NCBI GenBank assembly: GCA_945874535.1
Contig: CAMCGZ010000006.1
Coordinates: forward strand, 1-64,000
Direction of reading: 5' to 3'
Source: Bdellovibrio sp. ZAP7
GTDB taxonomy: Bacteria; Bdellovibrionota; UBA1018; CAIMNF01
Length of the DNA stretch: 64,000 bases
Part shown: piece after piece, positions 12,475 through 22,264 of the stretch
How positions within the stretch are numbered: the first letter of the stretch is position 1
Layout: the number at the start of each line of letters is the position of its first letter
The notes under the pieces: generated by a model
The model's database searches: none
The model's input: only the letters and a program-made list of their open reading frames with translations
Told to the model about the DNA's origin: nothing
Position numbers and translations under genes: made by a program

Positions 12475-13746
12475 ATGCTCGATTTGAGATACATCCGTGA
12501 AAACAAGGATCTGGTCCGTAAAGCCATCACCGAAAAGCGCGTCTCGTTGAACCTCGACGAGTTACTCGCTCTGGACGTGGAGGTGCTCGACGCGAAAAAG
12601 AAACTTCAGGCCCTCCAAGAAGAGAAAAACGCCAACGCGAAGAAAATGCCGAAGGCCACTCCCGAGGAGCGTCCGGGGCTGATCGAACGGGGTCGTGCCA
12701 TCGGACAGGAGATTTCGAAACTCGAGCCCGAGGTTGCGGTCAGGGAAGAGTCTTTGAAACAGCTGTTGTGGCTGACGCCCTTGGTGCCGGCCGCGGATGT
12801 GCCGGTTGGGAAAGACGATTCCGAGAATGTCGAGCGCAGGAAGGGCGGAAGCGTTCCGGCTTTTGATTTTGCGTTCAAGGATCATGTAGATCTGACTCTG
12901 GCCAATCACTGGGCCGAGTTCGAACGGATGGCGCAAGTTTCCGGATCACGAATGATCGCACTCAAGAACGAACTCGCACTCTATGAGTTCGCGGTGATCC
13001 GTTTCGCCCTGGATCACCTGGCTAAGAAAGGATCCCAGATCATCACCGTTCCGGCGATGGTCCGGGAGGCGGCACTCTTCGGAACCGGCCACTTTCCAGC
13101 TGGAAGAGAGCAAGTTTATCATTTGAAGGAAGACGACCTGTACCTGTCCGGAACAGCCGAAGTCCCGGTGACCTCCTTGTACAGTGGCGAGATCATGTCC
13201 GAGGCCGATCTTCCCAAGCGGATCGGAGCCTTTTCTCCGTGCTTCCGTCGGGAGGCGGGAAGTGCCGGCAAGGATGTCCGGGGTCTCATGCGTGTCCATC
13301 AGTTCAACAAAGTGGAGCAATTCGTATTCTGCCGGAATGATGCGGAGGAATCCGAACACTGGCACCGGGAACTGCTCGGGACTTCCGAGGAGATCGTTCA
13401 AGCCCTCGAGCTCCCTTATCGGGTGATCGAAGTTTGCACGGGCGACATGGGCGCCGGAAAATACCGGATGCACGATGTGGAGTGCTGGGTGCCTTCCGAA
13501 GGAAGGTACCGTGAAACCCATTCCTGCTCGAGTCTGCACGATTGGCAAGCCCGCCGGGCGAATCTCCGGTATCGCGACAAGGAAGACAAAGTGCGGTTCA
13601 TTCACACCTTGAACAACACCGCTGTGGCCACACCACGAATCCTGATTCCTTTGCTCGAAAACCACCAGCTTCCGAACGGGGCGATCCGGGTTCCTCAAGC
13701 CCTCCAGCCCTACATGAACGGATTGGATCGCATCGGCGGGCGCTGA
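12475..13746 (+). CDS. serS: Seryl-tRNA synthetase
   Basis: MLDLRYIRENKDLVRKAI; LYLSGTAEVPVTSLY; FRREAGSAGKDVRGLMRVHQFNKVEQFVF; ILIPLLENHQ. Confidence 0.96.
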   Translation: MLDLRYIRENKDLVRKAITEKRVSLNLDELLALDVEVLDAKKKLQALQEEKNANAKKMPKATPEERPGLIERGRAIGQEISKLEPEVAVREESLKQLLWLTPLVPAADVPVGKDDSENVERRKGGSVPAFDFAFKDHVDLTLANHWAEFERMAQVSGSRMIALKNELALYEFAVIRFALDHLAKKGSQIITVPAMVREAALFGTGHFPAGREQVYHLKEDDLYLSGTAEVPVTSLYSGEIMSEADLPKRIGAFSPCFRREAGSAGKDVRGLMRVHQFNKVEQFVFCRNDAEESEHWHRELLGTSEEIVQALELPYRVIEVCTGDMGAGKYRMHDVECWVPSEGRYRETHSCSSLHDWQARRANLRYRDKEDKVRFIHTLNNTAVATPRILIPLLENHQLPNGAIRVPQALQPYMNGLDRIGGR

Positions 13747-16669: not shown

Positions 16670-17830
16670 ATGCTTGACTCATTTCTGCGTCACGTGACCA
16701 AGGACTCTTATGGACCGGTCAGGCTCGAGGATCATGGAGAGAGCCGTTTCGTGGTCCATCGTTTTCACGATCATTTCTCGGTGTTGAACTGGGGCAGAAT
16801 GCCTGATGCCCTCGCTGGGCGCGGACGGGTTTCGGCCCTCGTGTTCTCTGTTTTGAATTCCAGGTATTGCGATTCCGAATCCTGGCGTCAGTTCCTCCGC
16901 TCACCTGAGGCACTGAGTTTCAGGAAGTCCGGTGCCTCACTCTCCCAGGGAGGAGCAGTCAGTTCCGGTTTGAACGCTCTTGCTGACGCTTTGCCCTTGA
17001 AGTCGAATTTTGCAGGATCGATCCCGGATGAGACTTTCAAGTCTTCGGTTCAAAATCAGCTTCTGCCCCGCTCCGTGTTGGTCTCGGATCCCGCGCTCCT
17101 TTACCGCGGGTCCAATTGGTATCCAGTGTGCGAACATTTCGAAGAGATCCGGATTCCCCAAGCGCTGGTCATGGGCCGTGCCAGCCACAATTTCGAGCCC
17201 TGGCGTCATGCTCGAGGGCCGAAGCGTCTCCCGTTTGAGATCGAGTGCCATTTTGAATTGAATGCTCACAGCCTCGAGGGACTCAACACAGATGCGGTCT
17301 CGATTCCCAAGACCGCCTCACTCCGGATTTTACAGGCTGGAGCGACCTTTGATTTTCCTCTGATGGAGCTGGTTCTGACGGCGGATCCGTGTGAGCGCAA
17401 GATCGGCCTCACTGAAGCTTTGGCCATCACGGGTTTCACCCCCGAACGTCTCCAGGAGTTGTTCCTCCAGGCCGCATGGGTCGCTGCATGGGCCCGTTAC
17501 CAAATCCGGGTATTCAGGCTTCATTCGGTCAGGCTCCGGTTCGGGCTTGATTCCGATGGTGCCACGGTCCTTCTCGATGCATTCGAGCCGGATGATTTGA
17601 TGCTTGAAGATCAAGGGGCGTGGATCCATCCAGGGGCATTGCTCGGTTATTACTCCAAGACCTCCTGGTATGAGGGGGTGATCCGTGCTCGCCGCCAAGC
17701 GAGCGAACTCGGTCTGACCGAATGGAAGCGCCTTTGTGTGGAGCCTGCTCCGTTCCTCGATCCGGCGGTCAAGTCGGGGTTTGAAACAGAATACCAGGGG
17801 CTTGAACGCATGATCCGGGGGAAGGTCTGA
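16670..17830 (+). CDS. Divergent PurC (SAICAR synthetase)-like protein, probably catalytically altered
   Basis: FSVLNWGRMPDALAGRGR resembles the PurC FDWGxMPDxIPGKG region; IGLTEALAITGFTPERLQELFLQAAWVAAWARYQIRVFRLHSVRLRFGLDSDGATVLLDAFEPDDLML matches the PurC C-terminal layout with key positions altered. Confidence 0.7.
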   Translation: MLDSFLRHVTKDSYGPVRLEDHGESRFVVHRFHDHFSVLNWGRMPDALAGRGRVSALVFSVLNSRYCDSESWRQFLRSPEALSFRKSGASLSQGGAVSSGLNALADALPLKSNFAGSIPDETFKSSVQNQLLPRSVLVSDPALLYRGSNWYPVCEHFEEIRIPQALVMGRASHNFEPWRHARGPKRLPFEIECHFELNAHSLEGLNTDAVSIPKTASLRILQAGATFDFPLMELVLTADPCERKIGLTEALAITGFTPERLQELFLQAAWVAAWARYQIRVFRLHSVRLRFGLDSDGATVLLDAFEPDDLMLEDQGAWIHPGALLGYYSKTSWYEGVIRARRQASELGLTEWKRLCVEPAPFLDPAVKSGFETEYQGLERMIRGKV

Positions 17831-17831
17831 G

Positions 17832-20234
17832 ATGTTCGTCAGAGTCGAAAGTGGTTTTAAGGCGGGATTCTCGGATCCCGAAGCCAAAAGAATCCATCAG
17901 AAGATCACCGAGCTCCATTCCGGAATCGGCGAGAAGGTGAGATGGATCCGCAAGTTGAATGTTGCATGGATGGAGTTCGAGGCGCCCCGTGACAAAGTGG
18001 TGCAGGCCATCCAGCATTGTTTCAAAAATCCGGTGACCGACTGGGTTTTCACCGGAGATCTCCTTCCCTCGGCGGCCGGATCCTCCGGAACCCTGTTCGA
18101 TCTGATGCAGGATTCACCGTTCCGACCAGGAGTATTTCACGGGATCGAGAAGCGGAAGCGTTTGAATGCTCATGACGAAGAAGCTCTGGTGATTTGTGAT
18201 GCCATGCAAACCGTTCTCGGGCGGAAGCATTCCGGAGATCGTGTCGTGACAGGTGAACTCATGTTGGTCGAGGGCGCCAAGTTGACCCAGTCCGATCTCG
18301 AGTGGATCGCCAGGAACTGGTTCTCACAGGAACGCCTGGAGTCCTGGTCGCTGCTCTCTGAAGAGGAACTGAAACGGAACGCGAGATTCCAATCCGAGCA
18401 GGTGGGTAAATACCTGATGAATCCCCAGCAGGCGAGCCGTTCCAGATTACTTCAATTCCGTGCTACCACTCGCGGAAGTGAGGAGCGTCCCGGCTGGTCG
18501 GGTGTAGAAAAGGTATTGCTACAGCCCTCCGGCGATTCCGGACGGGCTCCGGTCCTGATACAAGGCGAGGAGTGGAGTTTCAGGCCCGATATCCGTTTCT
18601 CGACCGGCACACTGAACGAAGATCCTCTCACGGTCACCGAGTACCAACTCTGCAAGCAGCAGTTGGAGCATCATTGCCGGCGCGGTTCAATGAGATTTCA
18701 GAGTATTCTCGGAGTCCTCCCTGAACCGACCCGTCTTTGGCGGAGTGATTTGGGAATGGAATCCCCCCTCCGGATCAGGACCGATTTCGAGACCGCGGTA
18801 GAACGGACTGCGATTGCCACCGATACGCCCATGGCCCTGATGAAGGTTTTGGAGGATGTGAACGAGACCGCCCCTTCCTATTTTTGGACTGGTAGTGTGA
18901 GTGTCCTCGACCCCAGGCTGGAGTCCCGCGGTTCGGTCGAAACGGAGTCCATTCTCGATCTGGTTTATGTCGGGCATGCGGATCAGGTCGAGCTCCGGAA
19001 TCTCGTGTTTTTCGGTAATTTGAAGGCCGCCTATCAACACGCCATCCTCGGCGAATCAATCGCGTTTTCGGTCGATACCGCCTCCAGAACATTGCTCGAT
19101 TGCTTGAAATCGGTTCCGCCCCAGGCGCAGTATGGATTTGATCTGGTGGTGGATGGTGTTTCGGAATGGCTGCGGAAGCACTTGACCGCTCCCTTGTCCT
19201 TGGGGTTCCTGTGGGGCGTGATTCCGGAAAAGCGTGATTGGTTGTTTGGTGAACTCAGGACCCGTGGCATTCCCTTCATTCACTTTGGAACGACGACTCT
19301 GACCGGAGATATCCGTGTGCTGGAAGCGGGTGAGTGCGCGGCCAAGGTGAATATCAGGGAGTTTTTTGCAAAAAATAAAGTAGTGAAGCCGGTGATCGAG
19401 GATTTGTTCTCCGAACCCGTGTATTCCGTCGATCATTTGTCCGCCCCCCGTCAGTTCCGGAACCGGTTTTCGACCGAGGAGCTGGTATTGAAGCCCGAAA
19501 TGCGACCTACTGGCGTATCACCCGTGGTGATCCGTCCAGAGCTTTCGAGTTGGTCTGGGATCGTCGTGCTGTCGGATCTGGTCGGTCTGGAGTTCAATGA
19601 AGCCAGGCTCGATTACCTTCTCCGGAAAAGCACGGCGGCGGGAGGTCAGATCCAATCCATCCAGGCTTCCTACTTGAACGGGATTCAATCCTGGTCCGCG
19701 ATACTCGGTAAACTCCAAAAGCATTTCGGGATCCTGGTCCTCGAGACTGAAGCGATCCGGAACGGTTCTATCCATGCGCATTGGTTGGCACTTCAAATCA
19801 TTTCACGCATTTCGGATGTCCGTACTGCGCGGACCGAGGAGTTCAAGTTCGTCAATGACCGCATTTATTGGCTACCCGGTGATTTCGAGCAAGCGGGAAC
19901 CCGTTGGTTGGCCGGATTCGAGGGGCGCTATCAAACCGGACTCCACAGTGCCATTGCGATCGAGTCGAGTGAATCAGGCGATGAACCCGCTGTGAAAGCA
20001 CTGATTAGTGCCCTGCTTAAGCGCCGGCTCGGGGCGGACGTCCGTCTTCAGCACCATTTCCCAGGCGGCTTCTTTGTCAGCGTGAGTGAGAATGAGCGCT
20101 TCGCTGTTGAAGAAGAATGGAGGGTGGTCGGTGTGGAATACGAATTTGTCGGACGGATCACGACTTCGCCTTATCTGGTCATCCGGGACGACGAAGACCG
20201 TGTGAAAACCATCGCCATCGAGGATCTTGCATGA
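17832..20234 (+). CDS. Divergent PurL (FGAM synthase)-like protein with N-terminal PurS-like repeats, probable pseudoenzyme
   Basis: N-terminus VRVESGFKAGFSDPEAKRIHQKITELHSGIGEKVRWIRKLNVA and GVFHGIEKRKRLNAHDEEALVICDAMQTVLGRKHSGDRVVTGELMLVEGAKLTQSDLEWIAR; AIRS_C-like end GFFVSVSENERFAVEEEWRVVGVEYEFVGRITTSPYLVIRDDEDRVKTIAIEDL; canonical PurL catalytic motifs not found. Confidence 0.7.
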   Translation: MFVRVESGFKAGFSDPEAKRIHQKITELHSGIGEKVRWIRKLNVAWMEFEAPRDKVVQAIQHCFKNPVTDWVFTGDLLPSAAGSSGTLFDLMQDSPFRPGVFHGIEKRKRLNAHDEEALVICDAMQTVLGRKHSGDRVVTGELMLVEGAKLTQSDLEWIARNWFSQERLESWSLLSEEELKRNARFQSEQVGKYLMNPQQASRSRLLQFRATTRGSEERPGWSGVEKVLLQPSGDSGRAPVLIQGEEWSFRPDIRFSTGTLNEDPLTVTEYQLCKQQLEHHCRRGSMRFQSILGVLPEPTRLWRSDLGMESPLRIRTDFETAVERTAIATDTPMALMKVLEDVNETAPSYFWTGSVSVLDPRLESRGSVETESILDLVYVGHADQVELRNLVFFGNLKAAYQHAILGESIAFSVDTASRTLLDCLKSVPPQAQYGFDLVVDGVSEWLRKHLTAPLSLGFLWGVIPEKRDWLFGELRTRGIPFIHFGTTTLTGDIRVLEAGECAAKVNIREFFAKNKVVKPVIEDLFSEPVYSVDHLSAPRQFRNRFSTEELVLKPEMRPTGVSPVVIRPELSSWSGIVVLSDLVGLEFNEARLDYLLRKSTAAGGQIQSIQASYLNGIQSWSAILGKLQKHFGILVLETEAIRNGSIHAHWLALQIISRISDVRTARTEEFKFVNDRIYWLPGDFEQAGTRWLAGFEGRYQTGLHSAIAIESSESGDEPAVKALISALLKRRLGADVRLQHHFPGGFFVSVSENERFAVEEEWRVVGVEYEFVGRITTSPYLVIRDDEDRVKTIAIEDLA

Positions 20235-20965
20235 ACAAGTACCGAGCATTGATTCTGAATTCCCCGGGCGCACGCGGAGAGCGCTTTTTCATACAGTCTT
20301 TGAACCTGGCGGGATTCGATCCAGAGGTGCTCGATGTCCAGGGCGTTCTAGACTACCGGATCGATATGGAGCAGCTTTGCCTGAAGTACCGACTGGTTGT
20401 TTTACCGGGTGGAAGTCCCTACTCCTCCATTCTCGGAGGAGGGAAGGCTCTCGCGCTCAAGATCGAGCATGCTTTCCGTTGGAATCTTTCAAAGTTCGCC
20501 GAACGTGGTGGACTCGTCCTCGGAGTCGGAACCGGATTTCAGACCCTGTTGCACCTGAAAGTGTTCGGTGAAGATTATACGCTCAGGACCAACCCGACCG
20601 CCCAGGTTCAGGAACGCTGGGTGCGGGCGATTCCGAGCGGGAACCGTTGTGTCTGGTTGAAGGGGCTGGGTGCTCTCGATCTGCCCGTCAACATGACCGA
20701 TACCGAGTTTGTCATCGAACCCGGAGCGATGGTCGAGGCCCGCGGCAAGCTGGAAAGATTGGGCATGGCTTGCCTGAAATCTTCCGATCAAGAGCAGGTT
20801 CTCGGGCTCTGTGATCTGACCGGTCGGATCCTCGGGATGCAGCCCCATCCTGAATACTTTCTCAGTTGGATCCATTCTGAAGACTGGGTGCTGAATCCCA
20901 CCCGCGCAGCCGCCCCCGGACAGGGGCTTCCCCTGTTCGAAAACGCTGCCAAATCATTGGAGTGA
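20231..20965 (+). CDS. Divergent PurQ-like class I glutamine amidotransferase lacking the catalytic Cys
   Basis: ALILNSPGARGERFFIQSLNLAGFDPEVLDV, VVLPGGSPYSS, LVLGVGTGFQTLLHL (PurQ consensus GxCNGxQ), GMQPHPEYFLSW; ATGA overlap with upstream PurL-like ORF. Confidence 0.78.
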   Translation: MNKYRALILNSPGARGERFFIQSLNLAGFDPEVLDVQGVLDYRIDMEQLCLKYRLVVLPGGSPYSSILGGGKALALKIEHAFRWNLSKFAERGGLVLGVGTGFQTLLHLKVFGEDYTLRTNPTAQVQERWVRAIPSGNRCVWLKGLGALDLPVNMTDTEFVIEPGAMVEARGKLERLGMACLKSSDQEQVLGLCDLTGRILGMQPHPEYFLSWIHSEDWVLNPTRAAAPGQGLPLFENAAKSLE

Positions 20966-22264
20966 TCACTTCGCCCAGTAATCCTCGTCCAGGCTCTCCT
21001 CACGCTCGGGGAGTCCCCGGAAAAGTCTCGGAGAGTTCCGGGAGAGGATTTCGAAACTGACACGATTCGAATACTTGCAGATTTGTGAGAGGGACGAGTA
21101 AGTCAGATAGTTCGCAGCGTGTTTCGGTGAATTGGGAATCTTCATCCTGTGATAACGGTTGGCCGCCATATCATGGAGCAGGGCTGCGAGTGCTCCATCA
21201 CCGGCACCGTTGGTGTTCCGGATCACCACGGGACCGCCCATGAAAGGATTGATGTGGGAATAGATCCGGATCGGATCCTCGCAATCCGACTGCCTCATGG
21301 CCCGCGAGTATTCGTAGAGGTTGTAGTTCACAATCGACTTGGTGTGAAGCTCGTGTTCGGTCCGTCTGGCACGCTTCCTGTCGACATGCCCCCCCACATA
21401 GAGTCCTTGCGCTCCAACTGTCAGCAGAACCATGTCGGTGAGTTCGAGGGTTTTTTCCAGAGAGAGGAGGGGATCTTCTATCCCGGTGAGGGCTATGGCC
21501 TCCTCGTGGTTCATGGCAAGCACGTTGACGTGATTCCTGATGAACTCGATAAAGAAATCCTTTTTCTCGGATACCAATGCGCTCGTACCCAGCGTGAGAA
21601 CTATCGGAACGCCGGCCCGCCGTGCGATCTCGCAGGCTTTCAGTGTCGAGCGGGAAATCGGCCAGTTGGAATCTCGGAGAATGTAGGCCGATATCATCAG
21701 CGCGCAGGATTTCTCGATGATGGTCGCGGGGATGTGGTCCTCGGAAAGCTCGTTCATGCAGCCTTTCGAAATTCCGAAAGTCCGTTCCCCGTCGGGAGTG
21801 ATGAAGCACATGGCCCTGCCCATCGGAGAGTCGCATGGTTGGAGGTGGTTCAAGTCCACTTTGGATGAGGTCGATGCGATGTACTTGAATGCGTAGTCTC
21901 CCACATTGATCTTCTGGGAGATCGCACCGATCAGCACCGCGCGCTCGTCCGAAAGAACGCAGAAATTATGGAGGGTGTTACCCACGGTACCACCGGCGAA
22001 CTCGCCCGTGATCCGACCCGCGAGTTTCAGTTTCTGGTACATCAGGTCCGCGAGCTGCTCGTCCACGAGCTGGCTTTGTCCTTTGATCAGACCGTGCTCT
22101 GCCAAAAACGCTTCGTCCACCGTGCACTCGATATCGACCAGGAGCTGGTCGATTCCGACCACATGGAAAGACTCGTCTGCGGTGAAATTATGATCGATGT
22201 TTCCGCGGTCTTTTTCCGTGATCGGGAAATAGTGTTTGCTCTTCCGTCTGCCGGGGAATTTCAT
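20966..22264 (-). CDS. gsk: Inosine/guanosine kinase
   Basis: MKFPGRRKSKHYFP N-terminus, VVGIDQLLVDIE, FAGGTVGNTLHN, NTNGAGDGALAALLHD, SPRLFRGLPEREESLDEDYW very close to E. coli Gsk. Confidence 0.95.
   Translation of the reverse strand: MKFPGRRKSKHYFPITEKDRGNIDHNFTADESFHVVGIDQLLVDIECTVDEAFLAEHGLIKGQSQLVDEQLADLMYQKLKLAGRITGEFAGGTVGNTLHNFCVLSDERAVLIGAISQKINVGDYAFKYIASTSSKVDLNHLQPCDSPMGRAMCFITPDGERTFGISKGCMNELSEDHIPATIIEKSCALMISAYILRDSNWPISRSTLKACEIARRAGVPIVLTLGTSALVSEKKDFFIEFIRNHVNVLAMNHEEAIALTGIEDPLLSLEKTLELTDMVLLTVGAQGLYVGGHVDRKRARRTEHELHTKSIVNYNLYEYSRAMRQSDCEDPIRIYSHINPFMGGPVVIRNTNGAGDGALAALLHDMAANRYHRMKIPNSPKHAANYLTYSSLSQICKYSNRVSFEILSRNSPRLFRGLPEREESLDEDYWAK

Follow-up and report, generated by a model that had tools for sequence, protein, structure and literature searches.

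The purC-, purSL- and purQ-like genes in the window, that is, the whole stretch of 64,000 nucleotides analysed here from an uncultured member of the Bdellovibrionales, probably encode a pseudoenzyme complex in which PurSL and PurQ are joined by a less essential PurC. The complex would have descended from the purF-C-D-N-SL-Q operon of the order and would serve a second, non-catalytic role. At the level of sequence it is established that the genes have this descent, that catalytic residues are lost, that the other pathway genes are absent, that purifying selection is strong and that the pattern recurs in several lineages.

The three ORFs lie exactly at the coordinates originally predicted, with a 1-bp gap (position 17831) between PurC and PurSL and a stop-start overlap between PurSL and PurQ. 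The features of the locus are the following:

16670..17830, + strand: relic PurC (SAICAR synthetase-like putative pseudoenzyme), 386 aa (NCBIfam, AF2, Foldseek, residue losses, dN/dS)
17832..20234, + strand: relic PurSL (fused PurS, linker and FGAM synthetase), 800 aa, catalytic motifs lost
17832..18416, + strand: N-terminal PurS+linker module of PurSL, residues 1-195, order-specific, the best conserved part
20231..20965, + strand: relic PurQ (class I glutaminase subunit), 244 aa, nucleophile Cys replaced by Gly100, HPE retained
20231..20234, + strand: ATGA stop-start overlap at the PurSL/PurQ junction
20966..22264, - strand: inosine/guanosine kinase, convergent neighbour, purine salvage (NCBIfam NF011655, 602 bits, Gsk subfamily)

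The Rfam search of the window returned no riboswitch or other RNA match, and promoter and terminator scans at the locus performed no better than chance.

By sequence, the PurC-like ORF is matched weakly by the NCBIfam PurC model NF010566 (7.5e-7) and by the PDB PurC 1kut (0.002). Its AF2 model (pLDDT 88.4) retrieves SAICAR synthetases with Foldseek (best E 5e-11), and the top 38 matches are PurC/PAICS throughout. In the case of PurSL, Pfam PurS was found at a non-significant 0.16 only, and none of the NCBIfam models searched matched. The AF2 model of this protein (pLDDT 81.0, pTM 0.73) corresponds over most of its length to FGAM synthetases (StPurL, E 2e-28, TM 0.62), with canonical PurLs in the input alignment that could favour a PurL-like model. 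The sequence resemblance of both ORFs is thus weak but real, and the predicted structures settle both identities. PurQ is matched by GATase_5 (2.2e-23) and by PurQ of Thermotoga maritima (3d54, 8.7e-12). The purine-enzyme layout proposed for the trio agrees with the profile matches of PurQ and with the predicted folds of the other two.

Twelve catalytic positions of PurL were scored in the catalytic and metal motifs SEH, ETHN, NRD, VQ, TDNGAGG, ESQ, ND and HD, selected on the basis of the PurL family and of the motifs seen here. PurSL in the window retains 1/12 of these and members of family f1 retain 0-2/12, where the catalytic half aligns loosely and a gap merely indicates that there is no alignable residue. 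In full-pathway genomes, PurSL shows 12/12 wherever the gene is complete, PurQ has Cys-His-Glu, and PurC has all ten scored positions (KDSDERKEDD), which presumably include Mg and substrate ligands. Second operons also carry full catalytic sets, except for one PurSL position (g21) and one PurC position (G008b).

The PurQ triad in the window is Gly100-His206-Glu208, with the Gly100 codon (GGA) at 20528-20530. The nucleophile is changed from Cys to Gly across family f1, with Ala in G008. The same Cys to Gly change is found in the pathway-less G030 and G058, in G032 and G044 (these two also with His to Arg), and in G033a and G034a/G039a, whose genomes have a second operon. In G026 and G037 the PurQ Cys is retained and PurL residues are lost, and in G032 and G044 (g19) an intact PurSL site (12/12) stands beside a dead PurQ; the latter pair indicates that either subunit can die first. 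PurC in the window reads KDSNEHTRDD (D to N, R to H, K to T, E to R). Like SAICAR synthetase, it has the predicted PurC fold and 6/10 of the scored residues; unlike it, several residues invariant in full-pathway relatives are replaced, and the gene is dispensable in the genus, as it is absent from the locus in the sister species G011. Catalytic signatures had been predicted to be gone from all three proteins, and they are indeed missing or substituted in each, but the loss is partial in PurC and in PurQ, where His and Glu (HPE) are kept.

The absence of the rest of the pathway from this genome is judged from searches, in which PurF, PurD, PurN and PurH (joint query), PurM and PurE gave no full-length match. 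Weak single matches apart, the same holds for G001, G003, G004, G006, G007, G009, G010, G012 and G013 of the same genus. Missing contigs are an unlikely cause, since G001 (8 contigs, 98% complete) and G013 (10 contigs, 98%) miss the same genes. The search for a second canonical purC/purL/purQ set found no PurL or PurM elsewhere in the genome; the only AIRS_C gene was considered as a candidate and rejected, because it reads as the selenophosphate synthase SelD. This gene (L090, G000:C15:32428-32955) is located beside a SelU/MnmH-like gene, and from these neighbours tRNA selenouridine is likely in this genome. Phosphoribosyltransferase genes of salvage size are present, which together with the adjacent inosine/guanosine kinase fit purine salvage. 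The search for an ADP/ATP translocase (PF03219) gave no match in the genome, and none in the controls either.

The sampled genomes are metagenome-assembled or species-representative; where a relative has a named record, it is a MAG, in most cases under the label Bdellovibrionales, Oligoflexia or Proteobacteria. Most genomes of the order have the operon purF-purC-purD-purN-purSL-purQ, usually followed by purH. Compared with it, the locus here is without purF, purD and purN, and purC, purSL and purQ have become neighbours. The purine gene set is nearly all-or-none across the order, with the exceptions of G026, which retains PurH, and G053, which shows PurE without PurM.

Among the 46 genomes of the order with at least 85% completeness, the N-terminal module of PurSL is present in 45, weakly and partially in two genomes of f3. 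PurM falls below the cut-off in 17 of the 46, and the module is retained in 16 of these 17. A degenerate PurSL is accompanied by a canonical purine set elsewhere in nine genomes (G002, G005, G008, G011, G015, G033, G034, G039 and G048). Overall, the ancestral PurSL is kept in 25/26 genomes (at least 85% complete) that either have no pathway or have it on a second canonical operon. The only one of the 46 without the module is G016 (f2, g4; 97% complete), in which the purine pathway is absent too. Since this genome is nearly complete, the function of the module is not indispensable in the order. G016 also offers a natural case for testing the purpose of the module.

In the tree of the N-terminal module and PurQ, from which the catalytic PurQ columns were excluded, five changes between full and relic states are needed. 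Well-supported branches, such as those that place G038 with G029 and G026 with G047, force at least three of them, and long branches leave the placement of G014 and G015 uncertain. Erosion of the active sites took place in at least three lineages and probably in five or more.

Other gene arrangements were observed in the same genomes. PurN and PurL form one ORF of 1145-1180 aa in the second canonical operon of G011, G008 and G033 (L076:7592-11026, L079:2265-5804 and L075:6660-10184, respectively), and they are separate ORFs in those of G015 and G002. In the full-pathway G049 (L137:5780-8862) and G052 (L134:297-3571), PurSL is divided into two overlapping ORFs, probably through assembly frameshifts. 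The serS gene of the window (12475-13743) is of an f1 SerRS type, approximately 40% identical to most of the order and 57-59% to G016 and G026, a pattern that suggests horizontal exchange or differential loss. SerRS was consequently dropped as a species marker, as the serS type of f1, G026 and G016 is only distantly related to that of the other members of the order.

The conserved part of the relics was located through columns at least 90% conserved among 18 full-pathway PurSLs, tallied by domain. In PurS and the linker (45 columns), f1 relics keep 0.70 and f2 dead relics 0.86, against 0.38 in functional second-operon/f3 PurSLs, a comparison that for second-operon PurSLs passes partly through gaps. 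In the catalytic half (199 columns), the respective values are 0.11, 0.40 and 0.85. The reversal of the domain scores between the groups shows that conservation falls on opposite halves of the protein in relics and in functional second copies (Mann-Whitney p 1.8e-5, indicative only, as the sequences are related and not independent). Fourteen N-terminal residues (R37, W38, R40, R53, W71, G75, L77, A81, G86, P96, P99, G100, F102 and G148) are found in 26/26 relics compared, and they are mostly absent from second copies. Despite its low pLDDT, the loop around residues 71-90 (FTGDLLPSAAG) is conserved, which fits an exposed binding element in the model. Across the phylum, strong matches to the module are confined to this order; elsewhere they are weak and mostly restricted to the linker.

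The PurS-like region is required for activity in ordinary FGAR amidotransferase (PMC3815217). Some constraint on it is thus expected as long as catalysis lasts, but not after its loss. Compared with the known PurS/PurL/PurQ assemblies (PurLQS of T. maritima, 3d54; the large PurL of Salmonella, 1t3t), the proteins here share the fold of the PurL part, the fused PurS-like N-terminus, the linker and a separate PurQ with a C-terminal tail. On the contrary, family f1 has lost catalytic residues in both subunits, the rest of the pathway is absent, and the order-specific N-terminal module is more conserved than the catalytic core.

The original prediction offered two roles for the trio, a repurposed sensing or scaffold complex and enzymes recruited to a new ribonucleotide-derived product. 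The first stood in that dead enzymes are held open by selection and not by decay, but its sensing variant fared less well. According to this variant, the dead complex would bind ADP/ATP at the auxiliary site of PurL and signal purine status, for instance to salvage, which we consider unlikely. The site was scored at StPurL D679, E718, N722 and D884, the last three of which we take to be auxiliary-site residues, and at four neighbours, in f2 dead relics with that half sequenced. All eight are intact in G030, G054, G033a, G034a, G039a, G058 and G057, and Asp679 of S. typhimurium PurL contacts the auxiliary ADP (PMC3815217). However, retention of the site could be structural, and these residues are lost throughout family f1, window included. 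The salvage kinase lies beside the trio in most members of the genus, which would suit such signalling, but it is not adjacent in G005 and G015. Nucleotide sensing is accordingly possible in f2 relics, whereas in f1 the residues argue against it at the auxiliary ADP site.

Recruitment to a new reaction and product is still less probable. The folds, the PurSL-PurQ pairing and the strong constraint are retained, which fits such a change, and an ammonia-using PurL reaction is conceivable in g19 (G032 and G044), with its complete PurSL and dead PurQ. In all members of f1, however, 10-12 of the 12 PurL positions, covering metal, substrate and catalytic residues, have been lost together with the PurQ nucleophile and several PurC residues; no substitute catalytic set was seen, and no added enzyme genes are consistently linked to the locus.

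Selection on the relics was estimated by the Nei-Gojobori method in comparisons of this genome with the three relatives closest to it, at dS >1, which makes the figures rough. The dN/dS ratio is 0.015-0.022 for PurSL and 0.010-0.022 for PurQ, compared with 0.016-0.034 for the neighbouring gsk and rocD and about 0.01-0.02 for serS. PurC is under weaker constraint (0.08-0.10). In all sampled members of the genus, PurSL is without internal stops at 43-95% identity, with the copy of G003 split across two contigs. Neither dN/dS near 1 nor frequent frameshifts, either of which would have spoken for decay, were found. PurSL and PurQ here combine a lost active site with a fold and sequence under purifying selection, and on these grounds would be classed as pseudoenzymes. 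As a unit, the trio is intact in this genome but not fixed, since PurC evolves faster and is lost in several relatives, with PurSL-PurQ as the persistent core.

The open frames could alternatively be pseudogenes still undecayed after a recent loss of the pathway, which is very improbable. The pathway is indeed lost, the catalytic residues are degenerate, and G026 and G037 may represent recent losses. Nevertheless, for this genus such a reading is already contradicted by dN/dS of 0.01-0.02 at cross-species synonymous distances >1 and by the genus-wide open frames, and the N-terminal residues are conserved across the order; decay, against which the original prediction had argued, was rejected on this basis. 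Scarcely credible is persistence as a by-product of subunit assembly, with the loss of one protein being toxic or destabilising another retained one: on complete contigs PurSL and PurQ are retained as a pair, their ORFs abutting or overlapping in most relatives, but both are dead and could be deleted jointly, and the nearly complete G016 lives without PurSL.

Under the pseudoenzyme-complex explanation, the ancestral FGAR amidotransferase assembly of the order would have gained a second, non-catalytic function, whose interface would sit in the order-specific PurS+linker module, positioned by the PurL-PurQ body. We incline, by a small measure, to regard the ancestral enzyme as a two-job protein in which the function of this module, tied to the biology of the lineage, and not purine synthesis, keeps PurSL in the 25/26 genomes that have no further need of it. 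Prey-derived purines or a second purine operon could then have made catalysis dispensable. Use of nucleoside monophosphates by Bdellovibrio has long been known, as far as earlier work cited in PMC7529429 indicates; it may account for the tolerance of pathway loss, with predation by these uncultured species being presumed. Subsequently, purF, D, N, H, M and E would have disappeared or been replaced, the active sites would have degenerated, and the Cys to Gly change would have ended glutamine hydrolysis, while the module and the assembly stayed throughout. Most likely, the complex would act as a scaffold or regulator by binding a conserved protein or nucleic acid partner.

An analogy is provided by the vFGARAT tegument proteins of gammaherpesviruses (ORF75 family), which are FGARAT-derived, reported without significant FGARAT activity, and have other roles (PMC2464709); one of them recruits the host enzyme to deamidate RIG-I (correction PMC6155549). 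Those proteins are viral and thought to stem from one capture, whereas here a bacterial set of two or three genes was converted repeatedly from its own operon. No earlier description of this locus was found among the papers searched.

A pseudoenzyme typically has a single origin, in many cases following a duplication. In this order, the sequence comparisons suggest that a complex of central metabolism lost catalysis several times independently, mostly without a second copy and with one module fixed. The second function can be separated from the enzymatic one by comparison alone, and the residues to mutate are named. This suggests an undiscovered role of FGAR amidotransferase in relatives of predatory bacteria and, if true, evolution in the order would have repeated, like replicates of one experiment, the change of a metabolic enzyme complex into a pseudoenzyme serving as regulator or scaffold.
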